A stretch of 51,852 bases of DNA from Blautia sp. (GTDB lineage Bacteria > Bacillota > Clostridia > Lachnospirales > Lachnospiraceae), in the NCBI GenBank assembly GCA_017459635.1, contig JAFUCO010000004.1, positions 1 through 51,852 of the forward strand, in the 5' to 3' direction. A model generated the notes under the pieces. It was not told the origin of the DNA, did not search any database, and saw nothing but the letters and a program-made list of their open reading frames with translations. A program made the position numbers and the translations under genes. Shown here one piece after another: positions 32,766 through 50,824 of the stretch; the stretch's first letter is position 1, and each line of letters begins with the position of its first letter.

Positions 32766-32804
32766 TACATTACCCTCCCCTATCAATTCTCATATTATGA
32801 ATAT

Positions 32805-33467: not shown

Positions 33468-33498
33468 TTAATTGCACATCCCATATCTATAATAAATA

Positions 33499-34065: not shown

Positions 34066-34233
34066 AAAAGCCTCATTAAATATCGATTCTCAGGTCTAAC
34101 TATTATATATTCATCGAATCTTATTTTTATACGTAAAAATATTCATGATCCGAATTCACTGAGATTTAATGAATATAACAGTTAACCCGACACTTCAGCG
34201 GAAACATAAGCATGGCAGTCTTTAATAGTGTCT

Positions 34234-35181: not shown

Positions 35182-35492
35182 CCCCTGCCCGCAAACAATA
35201 CATATTATTCCTCAACGGTTCAAATATCAATCACTCTTTCTTTAATACAATATAACATGAATCCTATTTATCTTCAATCCGCTTATATAGGTAATTGAAA
35301 CCGAATCAGCAGTTTCAAAAGCCGTACCCGTCTCGTGCCAAAAGCAGGAAGCCACCCAGCGGGTTTTGAGACTCTCTGCTAAAGCGTCTCAGAAGGCATA
35401 GGTTTTGATACTTTCTCAGCAGCTAAATAGACTATATTTATCCATCAGGACAAAAATATGTCCCTCTGTGTTTATTCATACAGACGCAGTTC
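35182..35492 (-). other. 311-base intergenic stretch with an unexplained structured segment
   Basis: Contains no convincing gene. From about 35300 to 35420 several complementary blocks occur (ACCCG/CGGGT, GAGAC/GTCTC, TTTTGA repeats) that could fold as an RNA on either strand; on the minus strand it would lie in the leader of the Rpn-like gene. I recognise no known riboswitch. Confidence 0.3.
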
Positions 35493-36050: not shown

Positions 36051-36740
36051 TCACTTTATTTTCAGCCGTTTCAGATACTCCTTCTGTTCGGGGCTGATGC
36101 GGCAGCTTTCTACTGCTTTCTGGATAGTTTTGTTATGTGTCCAGGTGTCAAGACGGCGCTCTTCTATGTACGGCAGTACTGCTTCATACTGCTTTGCCAG
36201 GGCAGTTGCGAAATACCAGGCTGTCATCATATTGACGTAGTATTCTTCTGATCTTATCCCGGATACCATTTCTGTGTAATGAAGATCAAAATCCTCATCA
36301 AGGAAATGCTCCATCAGCATTTTTATGCCGAACCGTATCTTGTACGTTCTGCCGGAAGCCAGCCAGCGTCTGACGGCCTCCGGCAGCTCCTTCCTGTGTT
36401 TCCTGAAAATCTTTGGCGACATCTGGTCACAGGTCGCCCAGTTATCGATATATGGCAGAAAGCTCTCCACTCTCTCTATGCAGGACGAATAGTCCTTAAG
36501 TTCCGAGATCACAAAGGAATGGAGCTGATTTTCGTCAAAATATGTATGAGGCAGAGCATCCAGAAAAGTGCCGATATCCTCCCTCTTGCCCAGCTGTTTT
36601 GCCAGTTTTCGAAGATCAGGCGTTCTTACACCAATAAAAGCTCCGGGATCGACTCCTGGTATCAGTCTGCTCTGAAAATCCCGGTATTTTACATCCTGCA
36701 GTCTGAAAAGCTCCTCTCTGATTTCATCTATCCTGTCCAA
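36051..36740 (-). CDS. DNA alkylation repair protein, AlkD-like
   Basis: A 229-residue HEAT-repeat protein of the AlkD family, a DNA glycosylase that removes alkylated bases without flipping them. Family segments are visible: FQSRLIPGVDPGAFIGVRTP, LRKLAKQLGK, FLPYIDNWATCD (about residue 115), RFGIKMLMEHFLDEDF (about 150) and VNMMTAWYFATALAKQYEAV with the Trp near the substrate (about 183). Start: a TTG with AAGGAG eight bases before is better than the longer frame opened by a GTG that overlaps the ribosome site. It is downstream of a PP2C gene with a tandem repeat between them and could be the last gene of the kinase/phosphatase island, or a bystander. Confidence 0.92.
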   Translation of the reverse strand: MDRIDEIREELFRLQDVKYRDFQSRLIPGVDPGAFIGVRTPDLRKLAKQLGKREDIGTFLDALPHTYFDENQLHSFVISELKDYSSCIERVESFLPYIDNWATCDQMSPKIFRKHRKELPEAVRRWLASGRTYKIRFGIKMLMEHFLDEDFDLHYTEMVSGIRSEEYYVNMMTAWYFATALAKQYEAVLPYIEERRLDTWTHNKTIQKAVESCRISPEQKEYLKRLKIK

Positions 36741-36771
36741 AAACCTCACTCCTTATCAGCGTCAACTATGA

Positions 36772-36898
36772 GCATGCAGATCCACACCATTGTCATTCGC
36801 AGTCCCGCATACAATTCTACACCGCTGTCATTCGCAGTCCCGCATGCAATTCTACACCGCCGTCATTCGCAGTCCCGCATGCAGACCAGCACCGCTGT
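36772..36898 (-). repeat. 35-bp tandem repeat derived from the PP2C 3' end
   Basis: Three full 35-bp units start at 36794, 36829 and 36864 with a partial unit before them (36772-36793). The unit at 36864-36898 is the last codons and stop of the PP2C gene (encoding TAVLVCMRDCE). Unit consensus on the plus strand begins CATTCGCAGTCCCGCATGCA. The array lies wholly between the PP2C and AlkD genes. Confidence 0.85.
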
Positions 36899-37669
36899 CA
36901 TATCATCTGTAGAGCCGGCATCAAGGGCTGCCTCTTTTAAGGCAATGCATTTTTCACTATTCGGGATATCTAAATTCAGGATATCTTCAAGTTCATCAAT
37001 GCTCACATATTCATGTATCCCGTCACTTGTCAGCAGTAGTGTTTTTACTGTTTTTGCTGACTGAATATGCAGCTTGCTGAGAAGCTTTTCATCTCCGCCC
37101 CCAAAGCAGCTTGTTATCTCATTTTTACTGCAGGCTTCTGCTTCTTCCGTTCTGCCAAGACTTCTTAAAAAGTTCACCACCGTATGATCAGATGTAAGCT
37201 GTTTAAGATAATGCCCCTGCATCGCATATACCCGGGTATTCCCCACGTGTATGACCTTCAGCTCTTTGTCCTTTATGTACACACCGGACAATGTAGTCGC
37301 CATATGAGCCAGTTTGCTGTCCTTTTTGCTCATGGTGATCAGCCGCCTGTTGATGTCTATTAGTCTGTTCCTCATAACACTGTCATCGGTCCATGATTCG
37401 TCATATGCCAATGAACCCTCATCCCTCAATGAATCTTCATCTGTCAATGAACTGTCATCGATCCATCTATGGCATGTCAGGGCTTCCAGTACAAATGATG
37501 AAGCCACTTCTCCGGCATTATTTCCGCCCACTCCATCTGCAATGCATATAAACCCTTCATCAGGGATTTCCACTGTATCCGTCACATTAGTATACAGCTT
37601 TTTTCCTACGAGTACCGTATCTTCACTTATATCCCTGCCATGTCCGGCCTGAGTCATAATATAGATCAT
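36863..37669 (-). CDS. PP2C-type Ser/Thr phosphatase of the island
   Basis: A 268-residue soluble metal-dependent protein phosphatase. Signature segments: GHGRDISED near residue 10 (the usual RxxNED with S for N), ADGVGGNNAG (about 44-53, metal-binding Asp45-Gly46), MATTLSGVYIKD (about 123), HVGNTRVYAM (about 140), LLTSDGIHEY (about 215) and STDDMTAVLV at the C-terminus (about 252). Between residues 70 and 97 there is an insertion of short acidic units (SLTDED, SLRDEG, SLAYDE, SWTDD) not usual for the family. It is the expected opposite number of the kinase encoded 5 kb upstream. The 3' end is duplicated downstream. Confidence 0.93.
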   Translation of the reverse strand: MIYIMTQAGHGRDISEDTVLVGKKLYTNVTDTVEIPDEGFICIADGVGGNNAGEVASSFVLEALTCHRWIDDSSLTDEDSLRDEGSLAYDESWTDDSVMRNRLIDINRRLITMSKKDSKLAHMATTLSGVYIKDKELKVIHVGNTRVYAMQGHYLKQLTSDHTVVNFLRSLGRTEEAEACSKNEITSCFGGGDEKLLSKLHIQSAKTVKTLLLTSDGIHEYVSIDELEDILNLDIPNSEKCIALKEAALDAGSTDDMTAVLVCMRDCE

Positions 37670-37690
37670 GCATCTGCCTCATTAATAAAT

Positions 37691-37911
37691 ACACTCAAGT
37701 TCAAAAGACGCTTCCAATTCTACCCATAGTCAGTCACGCCGCTGCAACTCATGTACACACTCAAGTTCAAAAGACACTTCCAATTTTGCCCATAGTCAGG
37801 CATACCGCCATAACTCATGAGCACACTCAGGCTCTGGAGACGCATCCGGTTCTGTTCAGCTCTGTTTTTACTGTTGCACCTCGAAAGCGCACTCGAGCTC
37901 AAAGGGTGCAT
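37691..37911 (-). repeat. 66-bp in-frame tandem repeat derived from the AAA+ gene 3' end
   Basis: Units with the core ACACTCAAGTTCAAAAGAC begin at 37691, 37757 and 37823 (exact 66-bp steps) and the fourth, GCACTCGAGCTCAAAGGGTG at 37889, is the coding end of the AAA+ gene. Because 66 is 22 codons, every copy keeps the gene's frame and spells an alternative tail (for example SFELECVHELQRRD) that ends in its own stop. Confidence 0.85.
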
Positions 37912-39748
37912 TCTCCGTGTCGATATCACATATAGTGAGCTGTCCGTCGCTTTTCACGTCTTCATCGAACATGTATCTGGACAGCGGGTTGATCAGGAGG
38001 CTTTCTACGATATTTCCTATGCCTCTTCCGCCGTTTTCGAGATTTTCCAGAGTCTTCGACCTCAGTTTTTCATATGCCTTGTCAGAGATAACCAGCCTGA
38101 TCCTCTTCTCTGTCTCCAGATTTGTTACGATCCTGTCGATCTGTGAACGAAGGATCTGTTCCGCAACATCCGGGCGGATGAAATCAAAAACCACTATATT
38201 TTCACCAATACGGTTCAGTATCTCAGGCCTTCCAAGCTCCAGCTTAAAATAATCCTCTATCGCCCGGCGCACCTTTTTCTGCACTTCCGGATATTCCATA
38301 TCAGGTGTTACATTCGGTTCACGTATCCCGGCCTGGTTTCTGGTATAAATGCCAAGATTGCTTGTAAAAATGATTATGCACTCAGAAAAATAAACCGTGT
38401 TTCCCTGCCCGTCCGTCATGCGTCCGTCTTCCAGGATCTGAAGAAATTTATCGAAGATCGTCGGATGCGCCTTTTCTATCTCATCAAACAACAGGATAGA
38501 AAACGGATTATTCTTAACCGCGTTAGTCAGCTGTCCTCCTGCCTCATAGCCCACATATCCTGGAGGAGCTCCAAGAAGCTTCTGGTCGCTGTGGCTCTGA
38601 CTGTACTCGCTCATGTCAAAACGTATACAGCATCTCTCATCTCCAAACAGTTTCTCCGCAAGGGTCTTTGCCGTCTCCGTCTTTCCGGTTCCTGTAGGTC
38701 CTGCAAAAAACAGGATCCCCTTAGGCTTCCCATGCGCCGTTCCGGACAGACCCGCCATCCCTGTGACTGCCCTCTTTATCACATCAAGAGTCTTTACTAT
38801 TGCAGGATCCTGCCCTTTAACGCGTTTCCGGAAATCTTCCTTTGCTGTTTTAAGCTCATTTACATTAAGTAAATCCCAGGGATTATCCTTCACGCCGTAA
38901 CGGTACAGGTCGATCACTGAGGACATACTGCGTATATGGGTTCTCTCGTTTTTGCAAAGCCGCCTGAGTCCATTTATCTCAGTAAAACTAAACCCTTCCG
39001 TCAGGCCTGTAAATTTATCCTGTACCTTTTCAAGTTCGTCCGGGTGCTGCTCATAATACCTGATATCCTCATCATAAATATCTGCAGCAAAGAAGCTGGC
39101 GAAGTTCTCGCCCTTTACCAATGCCTCTCTTTCTTCCTTTGACGGAGTATTGATGGTTACCGTTTTTACATTGGGATTATCCAGATAAAACCATGCCGGA
39201 ACATCGTTGACCTTGTTGACGATCATGACCATCAGATTCTTCAGCATTCCTTTTTCTGTACGCACATCCTTTGCTTCAAGGGATGCCAGGAGCAGGTTTG
39301 TAAAGCTGTCCACCTCTGCCTGATCTACATTGTCCGGAGAAACGATATATCTTGACGCCAGATTCAGGATGATCGCCGTAGAGACCTGATTCTGGCTGAC
39401 TGCAGATCTTACTATCGATGCAGCGTTATTCTGCTTTCCCTTAAAATCGCAGCGGATATATCCGCCCTCCTGACCGGCCCCCGTGACACCGGCAAACCTC
39501 TCAATATGACCGTCTTCGCATGAATTGTAAAAGCCCTGCATACTGTCATAGAACACAATGTTCTGATATCCAAGATCCGTAAAATAATAATGGAGGTATT
39601 CCGGCAGGCGAAGGATGCTCCCCTTTGAGATGCTTCCTTCCGTCGGATACTGATACACATCAAGCACATTTCCCTCCACAATGATCAGGGGCTTTATTCT
39701 GCAGAATATCTCCAGCTCCCTGTGCCATTTTGAAATATAATCACCCAT
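37868..39748 (-). CDS. ClpB-like AAA+ unfoldase with degenerate N-terminal AAA
   Basis: A 626-residue ATPase. Residues 1-290 look like an AAA-type domain that has lost its Walker A (IKPLIIVEGNVLDVY, TAIILNLASRYIVSPDNV, LKNLMVMIVNKVNDVPAWFY). Residues about 310-610 are a ClpB/HslU D2-type AAA+ domain with Walker A FFAGPTGTGKTETAKTLA (about 345), pore loop GAPPGYVGYEAGG (about 385), Walker B SILLFDEIEKAH (about 405), sensor 1 IIIFTSN, Arg finger RPEILNRIGENI and sensor 2 GGRGIGNIVES. It should thread or remodel a protein substrate in the cytoplasm. No N-terminal Clp domain or M-domain is present, so adaptor binding must use the degenerate half. It begins 122 bases after the radical-SAM gene. 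GTGATAAA precedes the ATG. The C-terminal tail is tandemly duplicated downstream. Confidence 0.92.
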   Translation of the reverse strand: MGDYISKWHRELEIFCRIKPLIIVEGNVLDVYQYPTEGSISKGSILRLPEYLHYYFTDLGYQNIVFYDSMQGFYNSCEDGHIERFAGVTGAGQEGGYIRCDFKGKQNNAASIVRSAVSQNQVSTAIILNLASRYIVSPDNVDQAEVDSFTNLLLASLEAKDVRTEKGMLKNLMVMIVNKVNDVPAWFYLDNPNVKTVTINTPSKEEREALVKGENFASFFAADIYDEDIRYYEQHPDELEKVQDKFTGLTEGFSFTEINGLRRLCKNERTHIRSMSSVIDLYRYGVKDNPWDLLNVNELKTAKEDFRKRVKGQDPAIVKTLDVIKRAVTGMAGLSGTAHGKPKGILFFAGPTGTGKTETAKTLAEKLFGDERCCIRFDMSEYSQSHSDQKLLGAPPGYVGYEAGGQLTNAVKNNPFSILLFDEIEKAHPTIFDKFLQILEDGRMTDGQGNTVYFSECIIIFTSNLGIYTRNQAGIREPNVTPDMEYPEVQKKVRRAIEDYFKLELGRPEILNRIGENIVVFDFIRPDVAEQILRSQIDRIVTNLETEKRIRLVISDKAYEKLRSKTLENLENGGRGIGNIVESLLINPLSRYMFDEDVKSDGQLTICDIDTENAPFELECAFEVQQ

Positions 39749-39870
39749 ATTTTATCACCTGCCAATCTGACGAATAAATGCCGGTTTCCGGCCTGCAGCA
39801 CTTGTGCCCGATGCGCAAAAGCCTGTCTGCCATCCTCCAGCACAGCCATATAACCACCGTAGACCGCTCT

Positions 39871-40434
39871 TCAGAATCCTTTTCTGTGTATCCCTACCGA
39901 GACCACTCCGTCTGCAGTGGTAAAATTCTGTATCTGGTTATGCGCTGTTTCTAAATACGCTCTGTATTTGCCGCCAAAGTCTTCCTTCAGGATATGGATC
40001 CTTTGATTCTCTGATCCCCTGAGCAGTACATTAGTGTTCTCTTCTTCCCTGTACTCCCCGTCTATCAGTACTGCTGCCTGGTCAAGCACCTGCACAGCGT
40101 CGCTTCGTTTCCGCAGTTCTTCTATGCGGTATCCTGTATAGATCAGTATATCCTCAGAAACAGGCTTAAGTACAGAAAGGAGCCTCGAAAGTTCAGCCGC
40201 CTGATCCATGGGTTCTCCACCGCTGATGGTAAATCCGTCTATTTTATGACTCTGCGTAATTCTTTTTATCAATCCTGAGATGTCCTCTATGCTGACTTCA
40301 TATTCCGGGCGCTGTTCCCACAGTTCGGGATTACTGCATCCTTTACATCTCCTGCCGCAGCCGCACACCCAGATTCCTGCACGCTTTCCCGGGCCAAGCA
40401 CCTCCACCGGGCAGAGTATTCTGGCCACATTCAT
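39871..40434 (-). CDS. radical-SAM activase-like (4Fe-4S, NrdG/PflA-like) protein
   Basis: A 187-residue short radical-SAM protein of the NrdG type, which activates a glycyl-radical enzyme using SAM and a [4Fe-4S] cluster. The cluster motif is C26-x3-C30-x2-C33 (WVCGCGRRCKGCSNPELW), with an extra Cys24. ISGGEPMDQA (about residues 70-80) is the SAM-binding GGEP motif and ILIYTGYRIEEL (about 97) is typical. The length matches NrdG. No glycyl-radical enzyme such as NrdD is visible in the window, so the target is unknown; it may modify another island protein. The start overlaps the FHA gene's stop as ATGA, so expression is coupled to that of the FHA gene. Confidence 0.9.
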   Translation of the reverse strand: MNVARILCPVEVLGPGKRAGIWVCGCGRRCKGCSNPELWEQRPEYEVSIEDISGLIKRITQSHKIDGFTISGGEPMDQAAELSRLLSVLKPVSEDILIYTGYRIEELRKRSDAVQVLDQAAVLIDGEYREEENTNVLLRGSENQRIHILKEDFGGKYRAYLETAHNQIQNFTTADGVVSVGIHRKGF

Positions 40435-41063
40435 AGCTTTGCCCTGAACAGAAAATAAGCAGCGTCCTTCTGTCTCTCCCCGTTTATCTCCATTCCTCCA
40501 AGTCCTATCTCATCTCCGTCTTTAAGCCGTGTCGGCTCCGTTGACGAAATCATAACATTATTTATGAATGTTCTGTTCGTATTGCTAAGATTTTCTATCA
40601 ACACTTTACCCGCAGCGATCGTGAGCTTCGCATGCTGCCTGCTGACATACATCCTGCTTCCGAGATATTCCTTCAGTTCCGCCTCACGCCCTATGATGCT
40701 TACAGGCCTGTCGATAGTTACAGCGTAGTCATCACCAACAGCCTTAAGCTCATATGCAAACGGCTTTTCTTTCTGAAGTACAGCAGTCGGAATGATATCC
40801 GAGATGTCCTCACCGCATTCTCTGCATTTTCTGGCCTGAGGCAGATTATGCGCGCCGCATTCGCAGATCCGTACAAGCACCGGAGCGCTGCCTCCGGATG
40901 AAGTGTCCGGCTGACGCTCCCTCTCCTTTTCTGCCTGCTGTTCACTTGTGCTGTCCATTACTCTTACCCCGGTCAGGTCAGTTTCACATTTCCTGCATTC
41001 CATCAGGGTAGGCGCATTGTGTTCTCCGCATGACGGACAGATCTTATATTTTGCTGAAGCCAT
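40431..41063 (-). CDS. zinc-ribbon/FHA-domain protein
   Basis: A 210-residue cytoplasmic adaptor. Two zinc ribbons open the protein: CPSC ... CRKC (Cys9/12/23/26) and CECG ... CREC (Cys67/69/80/83). A flexible charged linker separates them (SEQQAEKERERQPD). The C-terminal FHA domain (about 100-208) has the phosphothreonine-binding residues: IIGRE (Arg126), VSRQHAKL (Ser141, His144), and ENLSNTNRTFINN (Asn161/163). FHA domains bind phosphothreonine peptides, so a kinase product encoded by the same cluster is the natural ligand. I begin at the second Met (GGGAG seven bases before). The stop of the MSGPK protein overlaps the start and the stop overlaps the radical-SAM start, so three genes are chained by translational coupling. 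Confidence 0.93.
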   Translation of the reverse strand: MASAKYKICPSCGEHNAPTLMECRKCETDLTGVRVMDSTSEQQAEKERERQPDTSSGGSAPVLVRICECGAHNLPQARKCRECGEDISDIIPTAVLQKEKPFAYELKAVGDDYAVTIDRPVSIIGREAELKEYLGSRMYVSRQHAKLTIAAGKVLIENLSNTNRTFINNVMISSTEPTRLKDGDEIGLGGMEINGERQKDAAYFLFRAKL

Positions 41064-42514
41064 CATTCATCTCCCATATGTATGTGCTTTGTGCCTGCTG
41101 CCTTCTTACGTTTTCCGGTCACACTCATCTCTGTGATAAGCGTATCGTTCTCTGTCTCATAATCATTGACATTGATGATTGCCGCATGTTCAGCCGCAGG
41201 AGGCATGAGCGCTATCCTGCTTCCTACAATGACTCCCTTCTCCTGCATGCGCTTCTCAAATTCCGCAAATTCTCCGCAGAAGCTCTCCATCTCCGCTGTC
41301 AGAACTTCGGTTTCTTCGGGTGTAGGAACGCGGTCTTCTTTGGCTATCCCGCCAAGCTCCATCGCTATCTGCCCTTCCGAAGAATATGTGATATTGACGG
41401 CCGTTCCCTCTCCAAACCGGTACAGTTCATTCTTAAAGTGCCTGCCGCTCTTTTTATGTACCTCCCGTCTTCCGATCAGATCATACCCCATATCCGCCAT
41501 GACCTCATCGACACAGTCCGCAATATAGGCCTGCTCTTTTTGTTCGACAACGATCTTCTCCATCTCTGCCGCAGCTTTATCAAGTTCATCTTTATCCGTA
41601 AAGGTGCGGTCCCGCTCATCCTCCCTGCCGGCCATATCGCAAAGTATCTGATAGCGGATGACCGCTTCGGCAAATTCCGCTTCTTTCTTCTCGCACTCCA
41701 TCCGGTATGCCTTCAGATCCCTGTGCAGCTTCTTAACGGTTATGCTTTCAAAGGTTGAAAGATTTTCCATCCGCGTGATACTGTCAAGGCGGCTGAGTGC
41801 GCCGCGGATCTCGCATGTCAGTTCCTTTGTAAGATCCTGTTTCAGGAATTCCATCAGCTCATCCCTGACCGCCTTTTTCCTGTACTCAAAACCTGTATTT
41901 TCCTTCTCTGCATCTACATTTGCATCAGTATCATCAAACGATAGTATTCCTCCCAGATCTTCACCTATGCGGGTTTTAAGTTCCGAAAGATCCATGCCCT
42001 CAAGAGCACCCGGCGCATCATCCTTCCCATCCGTCAGGTACTCTGCTATGGTCTGCTGAGCCTGTCTCCGCTCTTCCTTCTCCGCCTCTTTCCCGATATT
42101 GACCGCCCTGTCCAGCTTATCCTTCAAAGCCTGTGCCCTGGTTTTAATAGCTGCAAGCTTTTCCTGCTGCTGTTTATCCTTATCCCGTTCTTCATCAGTA
42201 TTTATAAATCTAAGTGAAGCTTTGGGTTTATTGTGGTTAAACTCGGTCTGTATCCTTTTTATCTCCTCATCCACACTTTTCTGCAGGGATCTCAGCTCTT
42301 CAATTTTCCCTTCCTGTCCGCCCTTTTTTTCCTGCTGCAGTTCAAGCATTGCAAGCGATCTGTCCAGCTCACTTCTCTCACTTTTACATGCAGATAAAAG
42401 AGCGCTTATCTGCTCTCCGTACAGCCTGCAGTTCTGGTCATAATGTATATGATTCAACACATATGCAGCAGCAAATCCTGCAAGATAATAAGTACTTATT
42501 TTAGGTCCGCTCAT
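41063..42514 (-). CDS. MSGPK-type coiled-coil protein
   Basis: A 483-residue cytoplasmic protein starting MSGPKISTYYLAG, an N-terminus I recall from bacterial coiled-coil proteins of unknown function (MSGPK family). After a short hydrophobic segment it is mainly long charged coiled coil: about residues 38-145 (SERSELDRSLAMLELQQEKK and further E/K-rich helices) and 215-320. The last 150 residues form a globular domain (VDEVMADMGYDLIGRREVHK, LYRFGEGTAVNITYSSEGQI) with a basic tail (TGKRKKAAGTKHIHMGD). The chosen ATG has GGAGG eight bases upstream, and it sits in a GGGGACGG repeat. It may be a structural or substrate-presenting partner of the unfoldase or nuclease; this is inference from context. 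Confidence 0.85.
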   Translation of the reverse strand: MSGPKISTYYLAGFAAAYVLNHIHYDQNCRLYGEQISALLSACKSERSELDRSLAMLELQQEKKGGQEGKIEELRSLQKSVDEEIKRIQTEFNHNKPKASLRFINTDEERDKDKQQQEKLAAIKTRAQALKDKLDRAVNIGKEAEKEERRQAQQTIAEYLTDGKDDAPGALEGMDLSELKTRIGEDLGGILSFDDTDANVDAEKENTGFEYRKKAVRDELMEFLKQDLTKELTCEIRGALSRLDSITRMENLSTFESITVKKLHRDLKAYRMECEKKEAEFAEAVIRYQILCDMAGREDERDRTFTDKDELDKAAAEMEKIVVEQKEQAYIADCVDEVMADMGYDLIGRREVHKKSGRHFKNELYRFGEGTAVNITYSSEGQIAMELGGIAKEDRVPTPEETEVLTAEMESFCGEFAEFEKRMQEKGVIVGSRIALMPPAAEHAAIINVNDYETENDTLITEMSVTGKRKKAAGTKHIHMGDE

Positions 42515-42528
42515 ATAACTCGCCTCCA

Positions 42529-42568
42529 TAAGACAGGGTTCGTAAGACAGGGACGGTTCTCTGTCTTA
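42529..42568. repeat. GGGGACGG repeat, truncated, in the kinase/MSGPK gap
   Basis: AAGACAGGG-TTC-GTAAGACAGGGACGGTTCTC-TGTCTTAC. The 56 bases between the kinase stop (42571) and the MSGPK start (42514) are mostly this repeat, so the only space for transcription or translation signals is the repeat itself. One core lacks a G (GGGACGG). Confidence 0.75.
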
Positions 42569-42570
42569 CT

Positions 42571-44295
42571 CTAATTAAGAGAAGCCCTCCACTCCTCGAT
42601 TTCCTTTTGTTTCCCTATTGCTATCAGCCAGGTTTCAAGCTGAAGGTCCAGATTTCCGTCATAATCTACCAGGTTGTGGCACAGGGCCTCAAATCTTTCC
42701 AGCGACTCATCCAGAACCCTCCTCATGTAATTGGCAAGTTCACCGACAGTGCGGAACTGCTCGCCATTGAGAAGAAACAGTTTCTGGCCGGAAAGAGTGT
42801 ACGCCATCAGATAAAATGTCCTCCTCAGATCCGTACCATTGACGAGTTCCAGCTCATAGGAATACTCTATCGCTTCCGCTGCCTTCCTGAGTTTTTCATT
42901 CTTTGGCGCTGCCTGATTCACATATGCAGACAGCACCTTCTCTGACAGAATGCTCTCATAATATCGAAACTGTGACTCGTCCTTATCCCACAGCTTCTCC
43001 AGTATATCGCGCCCGAAAGCGGCAATGCTTTCAAAGGTCTGCCCCTTCCAGTAAAATCCTCTCAGTCCGGGATCGATCTGATACAGGAGTTTCCAGTAGA
43101 TAATGTCATCTTTTCCATTTTCCCGTCCAGCTTCCTCTTCGGCCGCCTGGCATTTTCTTGCGGTCTCCTGATTAAATGTCCTGAAGTACGAAGTCACATG
43201 TCCTCGAAACAGCTGTTTTTTCCCCTCTTCCCAGTTTCTGGCAAAGGCCTTCACCAATGCAGCCGGATCTGTATAGGATTCTTCAAGGAACCGGAATTCA
43301 GGCATATTTCCTTTACCGGAATTTACAGTTCCCTCTCCCGGAATGATAAGCGGCTCACCATCCAGCCACATCCTGACCTCTTCATACGTCCACCGTCTGT
43401 TAGGATTATCCTTGTTCTTCCGGTAACTTATATCTACATAGGTAAGTGCAGAGATAAGGTCCTGCAGCTGCGCCGGCATATCTTCCGGAAACGGTATCCT
43501 CTGCACGGACACATACTGCTCGATCTCCTCCGGCTGCATGTTCGCGTAAGGAGTATAACCGCAAAACAGCTCGAACAGCGTGATACCGAATGAGTAATAG
43601 TCCGAGCCTTCATAGAATATATTCTTAAAGGTCTCAGGAGCGGAATACTCGGGTGTCATTCCGGTCTTAGTCACGAGGATCGCATTATCCCCGTCCACCA
43701 CGGAGCTTATTCCGAAATCAATAATGGAAACGGTCTTCCCGTCCGGATTCAGCATTATATTGGAAGGCTTTAAGTCCTTATGAATGATTCCCGTATCATG
43801 GATCACCTTAAGCCCCTCATTGATATTCGGGATGATGCTCTTCATCAGTTCATCCAGGGTGTAAGTCTTTCCCTGCAGGCTTCCGTTTTCATAATACGGC
43901 AGTATCTCTACCGGAAGGCCGCCTTGTGTCCCTGTCTCATACAGCTTTGCAACATACGGTGAGTCGATAGTCATCAGCTTATCGACCACTTCCTGCTTTA
44001 TCGCAAACTGCCGCTTATATACTTTTGCCACGTACTCCGACCCGTCATACGAGCACAGATACAGATCCGCCTCTCCCGCATTCACCTCAAGCTGCCTGAG
44101 CACCTTATATTTTCCGCAGATTTCCTCCCCCTCGGCAATAATATGACCTTCATTTGTTTCTGTTCCGTCCCGGAGGTCGTACTGCCCGAGGATCTCACTG
44201 TTTATCACAGTTGCAGAAAGCTCCCTGAGGTCTGGATTTATCTGTGTCACTGCCGGTTCCTGCAAAGCCGGGTTGATCACTGTCTGATCTGCCAT
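42571..44295 (-). CDS. Ser/Thr protein kinase of the island
   Basis: A 574-residue cytoplasmic Hanks-type kinase. Kinase domain about residues 58-300: ATP Lys91 in YVAKVYK, catalytic loop HKDLKPSN (H172, D174, N179; HKD not HRD, so an atypical but plausibly active 'non-RD' loop), DFG at 193-195 and SAPE at 218-221, activation segment between them with Thr sites. The glycine loop (QLEVNAGEADLYL) has only one Gly, which is unusual. Before the kinase the first 40 residues hold three 'T-x-I-N' motifs (TVINP, TQINP, TVINS), candidate phosphothreonine docking sites for the neighbouring FHA protein. Residues about 330-574 are a helical C-terminal domain of unknown fold with no membrane helix. The start has GGAG ten bases upstream. 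Confidence 0.92.
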   Translation of the reverse strand: MADQTVINPALQEPAVTQINPDLRELSATVINSEILGQYDLRDGTETNEGHIIAEGEEICGKYKVLRQLEVNAGEADLYLCSYDGSEYVAKVYKRQFAIKQEVVDKLMTIDSPYVAKLYETGTQGGLPVEILPYYENGSLQGKTYTLDELMKSIIPNINEGLKVIHDTGIIHKDLKPSNIMLNPDGKTVSIIDFGISSVVDGDNAILVTKTGMTPEYSAPETFKNIFYEGSDYYSFGITLFELFCGYTPYANMQPEEIEQYVSVQRIPFPEDMPAQLQDLISALTYVDISYRKNKDNPNRRWTYEEVRMWLDGEPLIIPGEGTVNSGKGNMPEFRFLEESYTDPAALVKAFARNWEEGKKQLFRGHVTSYFRTFNQETARKCQAAEEEAGRENGKDDIIYWKLLYQIDPGLRGFYWKGQTFESIAAFGRDILEKLWDKDESQFRYYESILSEKVLSAYVNQAAPKNEKLRKAAEAIEYSYELELVNGTDLRRTFYLMAYTLSGQKLFLLNGEQFRTVGELANYMRRVLDESLERFEALCHNLVDYDGNLDLQLETWLIAIGKQKEIEEWRASLN

Positions 44296-44311
44296 ATAAC
44301 CATCGCTCCAA

Positions 44312-44352
44312 TTCTTTGTTATTCACGGCCCGGCCGCAAACAGCCGGGGCTC
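44312..44352. repeat. partial cloverleaf-like MITE end at the helicase stop
   Basis: GTTATTCACGGCCCGGCCGC and the following GGGGCTCAG match the left end and arms of the element at 26589. The fragment overlaps the helicase stop codon (44351-44353), which falls in the GGGGCTCAG part, so the last codon of the helicase may derive from the element. Confidence 0.55.
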
Positions 44353-47300
44353 AGTCTTCCTGCTGTTTTTCCGTTTTGGTCTCTTCCAGGGCTGCTTCAG
44401 ATCTGCCGGCCGAGGCCGAAATGGACTTTTCTATAAATTCTATCAGCTTTTTACCTTCTGCTTCAGGATTCCGGTACCACTCGGTGGACCATACACGGTA
44501 CAGGTTCCATCCCATTTTTCTAAGGACGGATGCCCTCAGGCGGTCGCGGTCCCGCGCTGTCCTGGTATTTACATACGACAGGCCGTCGCACTCGATGCCC
44601 GCCGCATATTCATCCTTCTTTTCCGGATGCTCCACCGCAATGTCTATACGATAGCCGGAACAGCCGACATACTGCTTTGCCTTATAGCCCTTGTCACAGA
44701 TGAACTTGTATATCGCACCGGCAAAATCATCCGGCACTCTTCTTTGTCCGGAAACAGCAGATGAAACACCTCCGCTCATTGCAAACTCGATGTATGAGCG
44801 GATCATCCTTATCCCCTCGGAAGTTGTTCTTGAAAGATCAATGTCCGACGGCAATATCGAGCTTACAAGCTTTATATTTATCTTAGCCCTGGTAATGGCC
44901 ACATTCAGGCGCCGTTCACCGCCCGCCTTCATCACAGGTCCAAAGTTAAGTGTCATAGGCTTGTTGTTCGCTATCTGATCCTTTGTCCTGGCATAGCATA
45001 TACTCAGGATAATGGTGTCTCTCTCGTCACCCTGAACATTTTCAAGGTTTTTTACGAAGAACGCTTCCTCCTTATCCTCCAGGAAAAACTCCTCACATTC
45101 AGGGTTTTCTTCTCTGAATTTCTGTATCTCGTTCAATATGGTCCGCTGCTGGGCTTCACTGAACGCAATAATCCCAAGGGATCTTTCAGGATATTTTTTA
45201 ATATGATCCGCAACAAGCTCTACGCATCTTTTTGCTTCCAGAATATTGTTTCGTCTGGCACCCCGGTCGTAATACCCTCCCTCTACAAATGAGAATTCCA
45301 CACCGGTATCCGGGCTGCTTTCATTGCTGCCGGGAAATGTTATGAGTTCATTTTTATAGATCTCCCGGTTTGAAAACGCTATCAGATCCTCGTGCCTGCT
45401 TCTGTAGTGCCACAGCAGCGTCCTGTTTGGAAGTACACTTGCAGTCTCCTCCAGGATAGAATCATATACCTCCTCTTCAAAGCCTTCCTCGCTGCCGTCA
45501 TCGTAATCATCATTTCCGCCCATGCCCGACGAAAAGAAATCCGTCGGAGGCAGCTGCCTTGTGTCTCCTGCAATGACGACCTGGTCAGCCCTGAATATGG
45601 CTCCGATGGCATCCTGTGGAAAGATCTGCGAAGCCTCATCAAAAATGACCATATCAAAATGATAATCCCCGGCATTCAGAAAATACGCTACAGACAAGGG
45701 AGACATCATCAGACACGGCTTTAACGTAAGCAGCAGGTCCGGGATCTCATGAAACAGCCTTCTGAGAGGCATTATCCTCCGCTTCTTTTCCATTTCGTGA
45801 AGCAGTATCCCCATCTGGGATTTTGGTTTTGTCACTCCGTCCCTGCTCGGAAAACTGCTGATGATGCGGTCTCTGATCCTGTCTCTGGATATCTCAAACT
45901 GCTTCTCATCCAGCCTGACAAACCTGCCCAGCCTCTGCTCGTGCACCCTTCGCCTGAATGTCTGCACGGAAGGAACATCATTTATCGCGAGGCTCAGCCA
46001 TTGTGTATAAAACCCTCTCTCAAATGCCTTTCTCACATCCCTTATGGCATTATTCCTTTTGACTATCTCGCCGGTAAAATCTTCAAGTCCTCTTTCGTCA
46101 CATTCTTTCTTTGTCTCGACAAAATCCAGCCACTTATTAAGCTCATCAAACCCGTCCAGGCAGGCATTGTATTTATCCACAACCTCCTGCATTGCCGCTC
46201 CTCGCATCTTTAAGGACGGGAACAGCTTGTCAAAATAGTCAAAGCCGTTTTCGCCTGCATCCATTACCTCGCGGATCAGGCGGACAGTTTCCGCTGCCTG
46301 TGCTTTTTTAACGGCATCATTGGAAACAGACTCCAGAAATCCGTCCATACCTTCCAGCGCACCTTTATCTGCAGCACGGGATATCTCATCTATATCATCC
46401 ACGATGCCCTGCCAGTCAGTGTCAAGCCCGGTATAGCGGTCCCCGAACAGATCCTTCAGCTCATCCGACAATACATAGGTTGTTTCTCCGGAATATCTCC
46501 TAAGTATTGAAAATGCAAGATCCGTAAGCTGATCCACCCGTCTGTCAGATGCCGCTTCATCTTCAAGCTGCCCGGTATTATCTGCAAACCACTGCAACTC
46601 ACGCCCAAGAGCATCTATCGTGTCTGTCAGTCCCTTCAGATCCTTCCAGTAAACATTCCCTGCCTTTTTTGAAGAATCCAGACGCCTGATATATCCCCCC
46701 AGTCTTTCCTCATTATTCCTTGCCTCGCCAAGCCCTGTCAGCAGTCTGTTACTGATGGATTCATGCAGAGGTTCTGCAGTGAGGGCAAGTGCCTTCCGTA
46801 CTGCTTCTTCGCAATTCATCACATGATTCTTCGTCAGCACATCAGACAGCCTGCGTATCTCCGGCATTTTATCCGGATTCTCCACGATCCTTATCACTGC
46901 CCGGACCGTCTCTTCGGGAATATCCTTCCCGTGGATCTGACCTGCTGCAAGCGCAGCTGCACGAATTCCGCTAATCACTTTATCCCAGTCAGTATCCAGC
47001 CCCTCATAATTTGCTTTGAATACGGTTTTCAGTCTCGCGTCATTATGGCTGTACCACTCCCGCTCCATGTTGACATCATTTATGGCAATAAGCAGCTCTG
47101 CCGCGATATCTGCAGAGACCTCCTCTCCAATACGCTTTGAAAAGCCGGTCAGATAATAAATGTCCTTCTTATAAAGCTCGTTTGCCGTCCGGTAGGTTCC
47201 GGTGTATTCCTCACGGAAGCGCCTGAGGATTTCCGCTTCATCTGTATCAAGTACTTCCTTTTCCCATTTTTCGAGGATAATTCCTGTCTTTTCCTTAAAT

Positions 47301-50209
47301 TCCGCCTGATGTTTTTTTGCCTCATCTATGGTCTTTTGTACTTCTCTTTTCAGACGTTCCTTGTCCTCTTCATGTAAATATATGGGAAATTGCGCCCTGA
47401 TCCTCTCTTCATTGTCAACGAACCACTGCTTTTCCCGCCTGATCTCATCCAGAGTCTGGAGCAGCGCAATGACCTGAGCCTCCTCAGGCTTTGTCCCCAC
47501 GGATCTGTAAAGCAGCTTCAGCTGCTGCATATCATTTTTATAGGATGCCTTCAGCTTATGCAGCCATCCAGTATACTCTGTTCTAAAACGGTTAAGCATT
47601 CCGGATGCATCAATATTAAGGACCTCCGCCTCCCAGGAGGTCAGTACCTGCCCGGTAAGCTGCTTAATTTTTTCCTGATGGATGCCTGCCTCCTCCATAA
47701 GTCTCTGTATGGTAAGACATGCATTTTCCAGGTCTGTATCGATCCCCTGATACAGAGACGGCATCATTTCTTTTAATCTGGAATTATTTTCCTCAAACCA
47801 TGTTTTCTCAGACCTGATCGTCGCCAGCGTCTGCAGCATATCTATTATTTCGCTGTCCTCTATATCTTCGCCGATGGATCTGTGCATTATCCTGAGCTGT
47901 TCCAGATCTTTATCAATTCTCTCTTTTGTACTGTAAAAATCCGGGGTGTATCTTGTCCTGAACCGGGTGAGCATCTCATCGATATTAATGTCAAGCACGG
48001 ATCTGTCCCAGCATTCCAGTATCTTCTGTTTTTTCAGGATATAGCCTTCTCTGTGCTTTCCTGCTTCTTCCGCCGCAGTCAGGTATTCAGGATTCCTGTG
48101 CAGATCAAACCATGCTGCATCCATGACCGGAGCATTTTGCGCTGCGCTGAGGATCTTTGCCACAGAGATAATGTCAGAAAATGTGTCTCCCTCCGGCAGC
48201 GCCATAAGCGCCGCTGCTTCTCTGTAGTCTTTTGTGAGGGATACGGTTTCAGCATACGTGGTGTCAATAAAAGACAATATCCTTTCATTAGCCTCGGACA
48301 AGGGCCTGCTCCCGGCTGTATCTTCGTACTGCTTCTCACCTGCGATCTGCTTCAGGTCTTCTTCCTTCAGGCTCAGTCCATATAAAGTCCACTCTGACTG
48401 TACATGCTCAAGCAGTCCCCGCACGATATCTGTATGTGCCAGTGCATCGCTGTCTTTGATTTTTTCACTGAAGGCTCTGCTCCTCAGGCTGCTTCTTACG
48501 TTCCTGTCTCTCCATTCTGCCGGAAACAGCGGCAGCGGGAAGACTGCTTCATATCCTGATAATTTTTCCCTTATGTCATCCCACACAGGCTTCAGATCGC
48601 ATCCGTAATACCGGTCAAGCAATTCGACCTGCCTCTGCAGTTCTTTAAGCCGCTCTGCCAGTCCGTCGGTTGCATTCATCATCTCTGTCTTGAACACCTG
48701 ACCGGAGGCCGTTGCAGTGGTGCCTGCCCACGGATTATCTGTAAGCCCTCCCTCCATATTGCCAAGGGCCTTTTCAAAGGCATCTGTCAGATACAAAAGC
48801 GAAGCATACTCTCCCTTAGTGATCTTTGTCGGATCCCGGAATTTAAATTCTACAGCAGTTGCATCCGAAAGCTTTGCAAGCTTTCCAAACACTTCGTAAA
48901 CGCTCTCGCCGAATGGTTCGATCTTCTTATGCAGCTCCCCGGCATATTCATTCAGGTAAAGCCTGTCATGAAAAAGCTCCGTCAGTTCTTCCATCACGGA
49001 ACTGTCAACGTATTCCCTGCTAAGACTAAGATTCGCACCAATATTATCAATGATCTCTTTTTTATTGGCCTTATAGTTGTGAAGTGAGAGGCAAAAATCG
49101 TCAAGCCTGGCTTCCGTCAGTCGTTTCAGGACGACCTGCAGAGCTGCTGACTTTTCAGAGACAAACAGGACCTTTTTACCATCTCCAAGCGCTTCTGCAA
49201 TTATGTTTGTGATAGTCTGGCTCTTGCCTGTTCCGGGAGGCCCCTGCATCACAAAGCTGACTCCAAGCTTTGAAAGCAGTATCGCCTCTTCCTGGCTGGA
49301 GTCAGAATCCACCACCTCATGCCACTCTGCCGGCTGCGTTTTATCAAAATTGAAATCGCCGGCCTCTGCAGGCAGCTCTCCCAGGGCATGTCTGTCACCT
49401 GTAATTGCCCTGATGACAGGATTATTGATCATCTGCTCACGATTATTGTTAAGGTCGTGATACATACTGATCTTAAGGAAAGACAGAAGTCCAAGGCTTA
49501 CCTCCCTGACAAGCTTCCATCCCTTTTTATCAATTATCTGTTCTATCTGTTCCAGATAATCTTCAAAGGAGTCCTTGTTCTTCAGCTCAAACGTGGGCAG
49601 ATCAATACCATAATTCTGATTAAACACATAGTCTAATGTCGGGTTGACCTCGATCTCATCATCGTATTTGCTGATCGTATACTGCGCATTAAGCGACTTG
49701 CGTTCCAGCCGTACCGGCATCATCAGAAGCGGAGACTTGAGCCACTGTGAACTGCTTTTGTTGTTTTCCCGCCACAGGATAAACCCAAATGACAGGTACA
49801 GAATATTGGTGCCCTGTTCTTCCTGCGCAAGTCTTGTGCTGGACCGGAGATTCTTCAGAGTCTTCTCCCGCTCTGCGACAGTACCTTCGGCTTTTATATC
49901 CCCTATCTGCACAGGCATTGAATAAGACAGCGTTTCAAGCAGTGCCAGCATGGAATATGTCCTGAAATCAGAGTCCCTGCTGACCGGTCTTTGGAAGGTC
50001 AGAGTTTTTTCGCTCACCGCAAGCTTATTGAACAGTTCCGCCGCGCCTGGTTCCAGGATCTTCAGGGTCTGCCTCCTGGACTCACGGTAATTGATCATCC
50101 TGTTCCTTTTGCCGGTGTCCAGGAGCTCCTTCTTCCACCGGTCCATCTTCCGTTCCAGTGCCGCCTGAGCCCGGTCATTGTCATAATTATCAACTGTCAT
50201 TTCTGCCAT
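44351..50209 (-). CDS. giant DUF4011-type SF1 helicase with Vsr/MTES nuclease domain
   Basis: A 1,952-residue multidomain protein. About residues 20-270: DUF4011-like N-terminal region (WKKELLDTGKRNRMINYRES, ILYLSFGFILWRE, SPLLMMPVRLE). About 310-480: first half of the SF1 helicase with Walker A MQGPPGTGKSQTITNII (about 322). A long helical middle (about 480-1500) contains three tandem repeats of about 125 residues. The second half follows: DEASQIFPQDAI (about 1522), VIAGDTRQLPPTDFF (about 1551), LLWHYRSRHEDLI (about 1604), VQGDERDTIILS (about 1727) and RLNVAITRAK (about 1770). The last 120 residues (YRIDIAV ... GIECDGLSY ... GWNLYRVWSTEWYRNP) are a Vsr-like MTES-type endonuclease with D and E-x-D active-site residues. 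The DUF4011-helicase-Vsr order has been associated with phage defence. ATG with GGAG six bases upstream. Confidence 0.93.
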   Translation of the reverse strand: MAEMTVDNYDNDRAQAALERKMDRWKKELLDTGKRNRMINYRESRRQTLKILEPGAAELFNKLAVSEKTLTFQRPVSRDSDFRTYSMLALLETLSYSMPVQIGDIKAEGTVAEREKTLKNLRSSTRLAQEEQGTNILYLSFGFILWRENNKSSSQWLKSPLLMMPVRLERKSLNAQYTISKYDDEIEVNPTLDYVFNQNYGIDLPTFELKNKDSFEDYLEQIEQIIDKKGWKLVREVSLGLLSFLKISMYHDLNNNREQMINNPVIRAITGDRHALGELPAEAGDFNFDKTQPAEWHEVVDSDSSQEEAILLSKLGVSFVMQGPPGTGKSQTITNIIAEALGDGKKVLFVSEKSAALQVVLKRLTEARLDDFCLSLHNYKANKKEIIDNIGANLSLSREYVDSSVMEELTELFHDRLYLNEYAGELHKKIEPFGESVYEVFGKLAKLSDATAVEFKFRDPTKITKGEYASLLYLTDAFEKALGNMEGGLTDNPWAGTTATASGQVFKTEMMNATDGLAERLKELQRQVELLDRYYGCDLKPVWDDIREKLSGYEAVFPLPLFPAEWRDRNVRSSLRSRAFSEKIKDSDALAHTDIVRGLLEHVQSEWTLYGLSLKEEDLKQIAGEKQYEDTAGSRPLSEANERILSFIDTTYAETVSLTKDYREAAALMALPEGDTFSDIISVAKILSAAQNAPVMDAAWFDLHRNPEYLTAAEEAGKHREGYILKKQKILECWDRSVLDINIDEMLTRFRTRYTPDFYSTKERIDKDLEQLRIMHRSIGEDIEDSEIIDMLQTLATIRSEKTWFEENNSRLKEMMPSLYQGIDTDLENACLTIQRLMEEAGIHQEKIKQLTGQVLTSWEAEVLNIDASGMLNRFRTEYTGWLHKLKASYKNDMQQLKLLYRSVGTKPEEAQVIALLQTLDEIRREKQWFVDNEERIRAQFPIYLHEEDKERLKREVQKTIDEAKKHQAEFKEKTGIILEKWEKEVLDTDEAEILRRFREEYTGTYRTANELYKKDIYYLTGFSKRIGEEVSADIAAELLIAINDVNMEREWYSHNDARLKTVFKANYEGLDTDWDKVISGIRAAALAAGQIHGKDIPEETVRAVIRIVENPDKMPEIRRLSDVLTKNHVMNCEEAVRKALALTAEPLHESISNRLLTGLGEARNNEERLGGYIRRLDSSKKAGNVYWKDLKGLTDTIDALGRELQWFADNTGQLEDEAASDRRVDQLTDLAFSILRRYSGETTYVLSDELKDLFGDRYTGLDTDWQGIVDDIDEISRAADKGALEGMDGFLESVSNDAVKKAQAAETVRLIREVMDAGENGFDYFDKLFPSLKMRGAAMQEVVDKYNACLDGFDELNKWLDFVETKKECDERGLEDFTGEIVKRNNAIRDVRKAFERGFYTQWLSLAINDVPSVQTFRRRVHEQRLGRFVRLDEKQFEISRDRIRDRIISSFPSRDGVTKPKSQMGILLHEMEKKRRIMPLRRLFHEIPDLLLTLKPCLMMSPLSVAYFLNAGDYHFDMVIFDEASQIFPQDAIGAIFRADQVVIAGDTRQLPPTDFFSSGMGGNDDYDDGSEEGFEEEVYDSILEETASVLPNRTLLWHYRSRHEDLIAFSNREIYKNELITFPGSNESSPDTGVEFSFVEGGYYDRGARRNNILEAKRCVELVADHIKKYPERSLGIIAFSEAQQRTILNEIQKFREENPECEEFFLEDKEEAFFVKNLENVQGDERDTIILSICYARTKDQIANNKPMTLNFGPVMKAGGERRLNVAITRAKINIKLVSSILPSDIDLSRTTSEGIRMIRSYIEFAMSGGVSSAVSGQRRVPDDFAGAIYKFICDKGYKAKQYVGCSGYRIDIAVEHPEKKDEYAAGIECDGLSYVNTRTARDRDRLRASVLRKMGWNLYRVWSTEWYRNPEAEGKKLIEFIEKSISASAGRSEAALEETKTEKQQED

Positions 50210-50254
50210 CATTTTCTCCGTAAATGCTGGTCGCCGCCAGTATCATATTATCCG

Positions 50255-50824
50255 CTATTGCCGGTCACAGTCCGGATCATATTTTCTGATACACTCATCC
50301 AGGATCTTTTCCGCATCTGCTCCGTCAATGTCCAGCCCAACGGCTTTTATCAGCTCAACATCCTTTATGCCATAAAAATTCTGAGCCAGCGCTTTGACAT
50401 AGCCGAACCCGAATTCTTCCGGGACGTACATTCCTCCCGCTGTCATGACATAAAAAAGCTTATCTGCCCTGCACATTCCTTCCGGAAAGCCTTCTGGTGT
50501 ATACATGAAGGTTATGCCCAGTACATTTATTTGCTCAAAATACTGCTTCAGTGAAGCCGGGAAGGACAAATCCCAGTAAGGTGCGCCTATCACAATACGG
50601 TCAGCCTCCGCGAACTGCCTTGCCATTTTAAAAAGAGGCGCATCAAATTCTCCTTCCGCGATCAGCTGGTCACGTTTTTGGAGAAATGCCTCATCAACTG
50701 CAGGAAAGCTGCAGTCCTCAAGCCGTATTTCTTCCACTCTGTCATGCATCTTTGACAGGAGATGGTCTGCCAGTCTTTTTGTCCTTGAATTTTCACGTAC
50801 ACAGGCATTTATAAACAATATCAT
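50255..50824 (-). CDS. NAD(P)H-dependent FMN oxidoreductase, flavodoxin fold
   Basis: A 189-residue cytoplasmic flavodoxin-like oxidoreductase related to azoreductases and NAD(P)H:quinone oxidoreductases. Segments: ILFINACVRENSRTKRLADH (phosphate loop of FMN), ADRIVIGAPYWDLSFPASLKQY (about residue 80, FMN isoalloxazine-binding), LGITFMYTPEGFPEGM and FYVMTAGGMY (about 130). I start at MILFIN because it removes 13 non-family residues and follows GGAGG. It is upstream of the helicase gene with 45 bases between, on the same strand, so it may be cotranscribed as the first gene of the island. Whether its redox role relates to the others is unknown. A plausible promoter is at 50950-50978. Confidence 0.93.
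   Translation of the reverse strand: MILFINACVRENSRTKRLADHLLSKMHDRVEEIRLEDCSFPAVDEAFLQKRDQLIAEGEFDAPLFKMARQFAEADRIVIGAPYWDLSFPASLKQYFEQINVLGITFMYTPEGFPEGMCRADKLFYVMTAGGMYVPEEFGFGYVKALAQNFYGIKDVELIKAVGLDIDGADAEKILDECIRKYDPDCDRQ

Follow-up and report, generated by a model that had tools for sequence, protein, structure and literature searches.

In the threonine-phosphorylation pathway of type VI secretion, a writer (PpkA), an eraser (PppA), a reader (Fha) and a ClpB-like AAA+ remodeller (ClpV) are combined. Mokosh defence systems (MkoA/MkoB, MkoC) use a phospholipase-D-type nuclease and are not known to include unfoldase, radical S-adenosylmethionine (radical-SAM), FHA or PP2C genes, and the prokaryotic viperins, which form another radical-SAM family than the one considered here, are known defence enzymes. 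The available text on KKP describes an anti-phage system of two Ser/Thr kinases fused to CSD and FHA domains, with a PP2C phosphatase (PMC11341870). The nucleoside triphosphate (NTP)-dependent conflict systems of Kaur et al. 2020 are presented, in the accessible part of that survey, as MoxR-vWA based, with an AAA+ core and variable effectors; in the FtsH ternary systems among them the first AAA+ domain is inactive and the second active, and some of these carry a radical-SAM effector (PMC7159879). In the excerpts available, BREX brings together PglZ, the PglX methyltransferase and BrxC (PMC12839542), and a Pseudomonas defence hotspot has a DUF4011 gene together with a radical-SAM gene on its right flank (PMC10250203). 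Here we analyse the Blautia contig JAFUCO010000004.1 (the window: the whole stretch, 51852 bases) and seven genes on its minus strand, 36863-50212, which almost certainly belong to a real, recurrent clostridial system, patchy in distribution and often plasmid-borne. The accessible parts of the four papers cited hold related ideas but not the seven-gene set, and no description of it was found in the open-access literature searched.

The locus

The window comes from a 2.67 Mb assembly with a completeness of 66.8%. Nine genes follow one another on its minus strand and encode, in order of transcription, a flavin mononucleotide (FMN) oxidoreductase, a DUF4011 helicase-nuclease, a Ser/Thr kinase, a coiled-coil protein named here for its N-terminus (MSGPK), a zinc-ribbon/FHA protein, an NrdG-like radical-SAM enzyme, a ClpB-like AAA+ ATPase, a PP2C phosphatase and AlkD; the contig ends about 1 kb past the oxidoreductase gene. 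Pfam searches bore out this order and these families as given in an original prediction made from the sequence alone, with the zinc ribbon scoring below cut-off and MSGPK matching no family. The oxidoreductase belongs to Flavodoxin_2, AlkD to DNA_alkylation and the helicase motor to AAA_11/AAA_12. The nuclease, which the prediction called Vsr, is an MTES_1575 REase, a Vsr-like family. The prediction also had three genes overlapping start/stop; the overlaps, of 4 bp each, are confined to the MSGPK/FHA and FHA/radical-SAM junctions and so join three genes, the remaining gaps being 42-198 bp.

The evidence supports a system of the seven genes from helicase to PP2C, with AlkD and the oxidoreductase outside it. 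Neither of these two gave a tblastn match (expectation value, E, at most 1e-3) in 54 related loci, a set that includes duplicates and loci ending short of the relevant flank, and L137/L138, a longer copy from the same genus, contained neither when searched in the same way, the window serving as positive control; both were therefore rejected as parts. The predicted single system thus holds for seven genes, through their order, overlaps, fusion, co-occurrence and correlated divergence as set out below, and fails for the outer two. Beside the unit, at 32000-36000, the fraction of G+C drops to 0.39 (0.45-0.51 elsewhere), and the products there are DUF4230 and uncharacterised proteins.

Conservation of the unit in Clostridia

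A search of contigs with two aligned radical-SAM proteins gave 21 loci. At least four of the seven families were present, by profile models, in 19 of the 21, and the gene order of the window was kept on one strand in 17 of those 19, the exceptions being L019, where AAA+ precedes radical-SAM, and L027, where the kinase comes last. The other two loci were L016 (a 4.7 kb contig with three families) and L033 (where a weak AAA+ match was the sole companion of radical-SAM). These profile counts are partly circular, as the models were largely built from the scanned loci, and L012 stands in them for L028 (same contig, 100% over 14917 bp); blastp with the window and L012 proteins gave the same picture for most loci. 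The helicase gene immediately precedes the kinase gene in 10/21 loci and in L034 lies in an inverted second unit. Kinase, MSGPK, FHA, radical-SAM, AAA+ and PP2C follow in window order in L012 (genome G023), preceded by the end of a helicase that matches the helicase model weakly and has a DUF3320-type tail. MSGPK was present in 3 of 150 family genomes, the window's own included. A 6 kb contig of G128 (L013) holds a kinase relative, a leucine-rich repeat (LRR) protein and MSGPK, with no radical-SAM gene there.

Searches starting from the AAA+ protein gave a similar association. Its N-domain alignment matched 6/391 Clostridia genomes (own included) and 8/398 genomes of Pseudomonadota, the phylum of L019. 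A radical-SAM gene lay in the same-strand run as the AAA+ gene in all six Clostridia loci, adjoining it in five and at the far end in L056, and in 5/5 strong Pseudomonadota loci (E below 1e-40). Counting only newly found strong loci, which leaves out the window and also L055 (the L016 contig) and L019, both already in the first scan, the figures were 4/4 and 4/4. The independent scattering of homologues that had been named beforehand as contrary evidence was not seen for the AAA+/radical-SAM pair, with L074, L082, L083 and L013 as exceptions.

MSGPK occurred in 6/391 Clostridia genomes, five of them shared with AAA+ (Fisher P = 4.8e-10, or 2.3e-7 when G165, with MSGPK and AAA+ on different contigs, is not counted). 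G280 has AAA+ without MSGPK, on a 4.7 kb contig that reaches only to FHA. The MSGPK model used (A4) contained rows from G293, G306 and G438, which lie in the 391-genome set; a model without these rows (A7) still found them at 77-121 bits, and found G165 at 401 and G159 at 100 bits. Pairwise distances were correlated among the seven genes (r 0.72-0.95, 8-17 loci, P at most 0.002), values inflated by near-copies (L024/L025) and shared ancestry. Only 2/60 same-genus genomes have the system, the window's own and G959 (the genome of L022, 100% over 16472 bp); it is an accessory set. Across Clostridia, sequence matches place MSGPK, AAA+ and radical-SAM repeatedly in the company of kinase, FHA and PP2C. 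Two related genomes each carry a decayed core copy (broken FHA gene, AAA+ and PP2C not seen) and a second, six-gene copy (L024, L025; L075, L076).

Fusions and variants outside the clostridial type

A Rhizobium leguminosarum plasmid (NZ_CP090092) carries, one after another, AAA+, radical-SAM, a 2086-residue fusion and a 452-residue protein starting MSGPK. The AAA+ protein is 40% identical to that of the window over 602 residues and the radical-SAM protein 37%, and the fusion joins zinc-ribbon cysteines, kinase, DUF4011, superfamily 1 (SF1) helicase and MTES_1575 in one chain. The same layout, complete or partial, was found in Caballeronia, two further Rhizobium records and three Pseudomonadota genomes (L044, L046, L048, L078-L080), some of them near-duplicates (L048 is 94% like L039, L044 89% like L079). 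In another Pseudomonadota locus, L081, AAA+, radical-SAM and kinase genes stand with weaker PP2C, FHA and MSGPK-like matches and no helicase; its MSGPK-like gene (32 bits) lacks the MSGPK motif. A gammaproteobacterial variant on Photobacterium, Moellerella and Acinetobacter plasmids consists of an SF1 helicase, a second gene that encodes a PIN domain in these plasmids, a coiled-coil protein, AAA+ and radical-SAM, and its content makes AAA+ and radical-SAM the constant pair. One Clostridia genome (L058) has the same layout near a phage integrase gene.

The AAA+ N-domain was found in 18 plasmid records, with radical-SAM in the same run in 8/9 records examined. A plasmid scan with the radical-SAM protein gave 140 records, and 8 of the matches were inspected. 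A Geminocystis plasmid (L036/L047) separates its AAA+ and radical-SAM genes by about 9 kb; genes for an anti-phage dCTP deaminase and a dGTPase are found in the same region. In Acinetobacter (L045:14721-16703) two more genes come after the variant, one for a further small AAA ATPase and one for a second, larger radical-SAM protein. Relatives of the radical-SAM protein also lie near other kinds of AAA ATPase on plasmid records L040, L041, L042 and L037, in settings that include a Treponema contractile-injection cluster, DUF1257/DUF2997 genes in Paenibacillus, a similar layout in Arthrobacter, and Hsp70/TPR genes in Calothrix. It may be that radical-SAM and AAA genes pair more generally.

Helicase-nuclease and other candidate effectors

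The helicase-nuclease gene (44351..50212, minus strand) encodes 1953 aa with DUF4011 (114.8 bits), an SF1 helicase and an MTES_1575 nuclease (112.1 bits). In PADLOC it matched PDC-S37, a candidate there without shown function, at E 0 and 1278 bits over five stretches, the best of them 1249-1947, and Hhe at 560 bits; in NCBIfam the nearest named family was ProA (1192.8 bits, under the cut-off of 1500), with Hhe at 820.3 bits (cut-off 2000). DUF4011 occurred in 41/391 Clostridia genomes, and 39 of the 41 had neither MSGPK nor the AAA+ N-domain. No core gene was found in the 8-20 kb around the 20 best DUF4011 matches outside the window; in G165, which is not one of those 20, a single contig carries helicase, kinase and MSGPK, with an AbiEii gene ahead of them and a relaxase gene close by. 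Helicases so commonly alone, and the chance neighbours AlkD and oxidoreductase, would suit the view that there is no system, only independent defence or stress genes sharing a defence island.

A tree of the helicase C-terminal region (35 rows, midpoint-rooted, with the helicases of L012, L034 and L130 left out) speaks against that view. Eleven clostridial system helicases formed one clade (100/97) apart from 20 others, which were the best-scoring DUF4011 matches outside the window; three stand-alone helicases were sister to this clade, and four Rhizobium-type fusions formed a separate lineage. Solitary occurrence of the helicase, which had been named in advance as a sign against one system, thus applies to the DUF4011 family at large and not to the 11-member clade. 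Window order in 17/21 loci, the 4-bp overlaps, the kinase-helicase fusion and the co-occurrence of MSGPK with AAA+ tell the same way, and on these grounds a chance island was rejected for the seven genes, its probability being very slight.

The effector gene associated with the core varies between loci, as judged from family matches. PtuA (470 bits) and PtuB (113 bits) of Septu lie between radical-SAM and AAA+ in L018, on the same strand with gaps of 12 and 2 bp; in L075 some 300 bp separate the kinase from a GmrSD-DUF4268 protein encoded upstream; in L019 a PDC-M26A gene (119 bits, no Pfam match, McrB-like by eye) and a DUF2357 gene are upstream of MSGPK; and AbiEii precedes the helicase in L130. 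After PP2C come PglZ, a GmrSD-family protein and a helicase-HNH protein in L012, and a NADAR gene in L022. Other accessory genes encode MORN (L056), FGE-sulfatase (L081), LRR, DUF4236 and small membrane proteins. Copies are plasmid-borne in named isolates of Aristaeella lactis (NZ_CP069422), Rhizobium, Photobacterium and Moellerella. In a Clostridia genome (L059:4943-6817) a gene resembling, by eye, a conjugative coupling ATPase (VirD4/TraG type) stands just before the core, hinting at an integrative element. Taken together, the accessory genes give circumstantial support to a defence role, and we consider it probable that the seven-gene system is immune in function.

PADLOC and NCBIfam name relatives of the window helicase as single proteins, and stand-alone relatives exist (3/20 examined being sister to the system clade). 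The helicase-nuclease might then be a self-sufficient, single-gene defence that kinase, AAA+ and radical-SAM only restrain or repair, as an immunity function. However, some cores have no helicase and others are combined with effectors of quite another kind, so the core is not merely a helicase antidote; we regard self-sufficiency as improbable. By these comparisons the core has in the helicase a partner of its own that it can do without, and the helicase-nuclease of the window, a member of a subfamily tied to the system, is likely the effector.

Core proteins

The AAA+ protein (37868..39748, minus strand; Pfam AAA_2 and ClpB_D2-small) resembles ClpB/ClpC; its first AAA domain is degenerate and its second intact. 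Walker motifs of the second ring were present in 15/16 homologues, the exception (L030) being a fragment, and no P-loop was found in the first 290 residues of any of the 16. An AlphaFold2 model (predicted local distance difference test, pLDDT, 78.2; predicted template modelling score, pTM, 0.51) aligned over residues of about 4-626 with D1+D2 of ClpB/ClpC/ClpA, pointing to a ClpB/ClpC-like D1+D2 fold with a dead first ring, a live second ring and no Clp N-domain. The IG(F/L) motif, which is the ClpP contact, was not found in the protein. It falls outside ClpB itself (NCBIfam 256.7 bits over residues 300-606, cut-off 1232) and matched TssH/ClpV at 228 bits (cut-off 885) in the second ring only. 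We regard it as a putative unfoldase or remodeller. The whole protein matched 148 phage records, none covering 80% of the query, and Moellerella AAA+/radical-SAM DNA matched 1472/5426 Escherichia coli genomes, none covering 80%, with the 20 matches listed being Clp genes. LRR_5-type proteins are inserted between radical-SAM and AAA+ at L021:10569-11675, L018:12782-13879 and L032:10565-12708; they have an N-terminal coiled-coil-like stretch and no signal peptide by eye, and are possible sensors.

The radical-SAM gene (39871..40434, minus strand, 187 aa; Fer4_12 106 bits, Radical_SAM 34.7 bits) belongs to the radical-SAM superfamily, with CxxxCxxC and GG(E/D)P in 18/18 homologues and the three cysteines invariant in 24 aligned relatives. 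The clostridial relatives have a C-terminal signature in common, NxIQNF...VSVGIH. NrdG (TIGR02491) was the best NCBIfam match, at 112.7 bits under a cut-off of 126.1. When a housekeeping NrdG was sought in the incomplete genome of the window, no match reached that cut-off, and none of the unit proteins matched an NrdD-like family in Pfam or NCBIfam.

The kinase gene (42571..44295, minus strand, 574 aa) has a Pkinase match of 102.5 bits at residues 105-292; HxDLKxxN and DFG were present in 18/18 complete homologues, and besides the Pfam domain the protein has a conserved C-terminal region. The zinc-ribbon/FHA protein (40431..41066, minus strand, 211 aa; FHA 52.4 bits) shows CxxC pairs where the zinc-ribbon Pfam models remain below their cut-offs, and each of its four FHA/zinc motifs was found in 16/18 homologues. 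The PP2C gene (36863..37669, minus strand, 268 aa; PP2C_2 32.4, PP2C 29.7 bits) keeps its metal-site motifs in 10-11 of 11 homologues. Incomplete open reading frames were mostly excluded from these motif counts. The FHA protein is a putative phosphothreonine reader and PP2C a putative eraser, and a switch of writer, reader and eraser would fit the conserved motifs.

The MSGPK gene (41063..42514, minus strand) matched no family in Pfam, PADLOC or NCBIfam. Its reading frame opens at 42529; the start that homologues use, at MSGPK, lies five codons further in, at 42514. The motif was invariant in the 18 rows of alignment A7, which omits a minus-strand copy in L034 that reads MSGSK; the L059 copy reads MSGFT. 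An AlphaFold2 model (pLDDT 80.9) has long helices followed by an alpha/beta domain, and gave 411 matches to the PDB at E of at most 10, none of them at E of at most 0.001. The model suits a scaffold presented to a remodelling ring, and we propose the protein as a candidate adaptor or scaffold. MSGPK as a glycyl-radical target was considered; against it stand the gammaproteobacterial variant, which keeps radical-SAM without the motif, and the MSGFT of L059. Between kinase and MSGPK there are small, variable proteins that seem to have membrane helices, at L021:6812-8056, L024:7249-8448, L026:6476-7995 and L032:6902-8071.

Discussion

On balance we favour a mobile, multi-gene system against phage or mobile DNA, in which a conserved control core is combined with an exchangeable effector that attacks nucleic acid. 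How the core might work is a more tentative matter, and we offer a phosphorylation-gated unfoldase as a possibility that we hold at somewhat less than even. At rest, PP2C would keep the assembly dephosphorylated and the helicase-nuclease (or GmrSD, the McrB-like protein or PtuAB) silent. Infection would lead the kinase to phosphorylate another component, for which the MSGPK scaffold and the AAA+ protein are the likeliest candidates, and the zinc-ribbon/FHA protein would read the mark. The ClpB-like ring, its dead first half serving as scaffold and its live second half as motor, would then unfold or remodel the MSGPK-effector complex, and the freed nuclease would degrade the invading DNA. The radical-SAM enzyme, the most constant partner of the AAA+ gene, would probably modify or license the AAA+ protein or the adaptor by an NrdG-like activation, as a checkpoint dependent on redox state or SAM.

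The core could instead be a general, phospho-regulated machine of mobile elements, assembling and disassembling complexes or serving in stress, with the defence genes as passengers. Kinase, PP2C, FHA and ClpB-like AAA+ supply the same four functions as PpkA, PppA, Fha and ClpV; core loci without a recognised nuclease exist; and a relative of the radical-SAM protein adjoins an AAA gene in the Treponema contractile-injection cluster. Passengers would not be expected, however, to form one clade of clostridial system helicases with distances that track the core, nor to be fused to the kinase as in the Rhizobium-type loci, and no secretion gene was recognised among the eight searched genes flanking the unit, the remaining window lying outside that search. 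We consider such a general machine unlikely.

Several observations weigh against the defence system that we prefer, or against parts of it. The association with defence genes is descriptive. No nuclease effector was recognised in L056, L057, L059 or L081 (some genes searched; L057 and L059 by eye only), ordinary-looking genes precede the kinase in L020, L024 and L025, and the helicase was not seen in 10/21 radical-SAM loci, in some because the contig ends. The weak AAA+ matches L074, L082 and L083 (E 1e-28 to 1e-9) have no radical-SAM gene, L074 being only 1.7 kb. A search of 50,697 phage records with the AAA+ N-domain found no match. Of the six matches to the NrdG model in the window's genome, which is 66.8% complete, the radical-SAM gene is the best, and a housekeeping NrdG role for it is possible. 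Because the gammaproteobacterial variant has no kinase, FHA or PP2C match to the models used, phosphorylation is not universal. Its coiled-coil protein is related to MSGPK only suggestively (hhalign, 58% with the full profile and 1.5% with a C-terminal piece). The Rhizobium MSGPK-type protein is tied to the clostridial one by N-terminus and position, and profile support for homology is weak: the A7 model (18 clostridial rows) misses the Rhizobium and Caballeronia proteins at E of at most 1e-3, and a profile-profile comparison gave 14.6% (0.03-0.43% in 20 column shuffles); their scores in the profile table are circular, three of them having sat in the model. This weaker homology leaves our assessment unchanged, since the links through AAA+, radical-SAM, kinase and helicase hold in those loci.

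A bolder proposal, which we think doubtful, is that the AAA+, radical-SAM and coiled-coil trio is an undescribed immune chassis, in which a glycyl-radical-activase-like enzyme would chemically license the unfoldase or an SGPK-tagged adaptor and the phospho-switch would time release of the nuclease. Equally speculative is its reach, which would cover Bacillota and Pseudomonadota at the least, relatives being present in Cyanobacteriota, and take in helicase-nuclease, GmrSD, McrBC-like, Septu and PIN nucleases. If the defence system we favour is real, it would be an immune architecture with one phospho-regulated unfoldase core plugged into different effectors, would bring a protein-directed radical-SAM reaction into phage defence and would give the orphan MSGPK family a function. 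The natural swaps, with the same core and a different effector, make its logic open to direct exchange experiments.

Among known systems, Mokosh shares the combination of Ser/Thr kinase and SF1 helicase, and the Rhizobium fusion and the gammaproteobacterial helicase match MkoA (156.7 bits, though 462.5 to PDC-S37, and 310.5 bits). The window helicase, in contrast, scores 64.0 bits with MkoA and 70.2 with MkoC against 1278 with PDC-S37, its nuclease is MTES_1575, and no phospholipase-D match was found among the nine window proteins. Hhe, ProA and PDC-S37 are the best library matches of the window helicase and have the same domains; unlike these, which are named as single proteins, it falls in a clade tied to a six-gene core. 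From the type VI pathway the window differs in the dead first ring and missing Clp N-domain of its AAA+ protein and in the added radical-SAM and MSGPK genes. The original prediction held that radical-SAM genes had no place in known defence systems; given the viperins, radical-SAM in defence is not wholly new, and the NrdG-like type appears new as far as the open-access literature searched.

KKP likewise has Ser/Thr kinase, PP2C and FHA domain, and its available description includes no AAA+, radical-SAM or helicase-nuclease partners (PMC11341870); the window has one kinase, and its FHA domain is on a separate zinc-ribbon protein. None of the BREX families occurs among the nine window proteins, PglZ being found only in L012, after the core. 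The systems of Kaur et al. are alike, in the accessible part of the survey, in having an AAA+ core and variable effectors (PMC7159879). Unlike them, the nine window proteins have no vWA or MoxR match, the AAA+ protein is ClpB-like, and the radical-SAM enzyme is a constant partner of the core.

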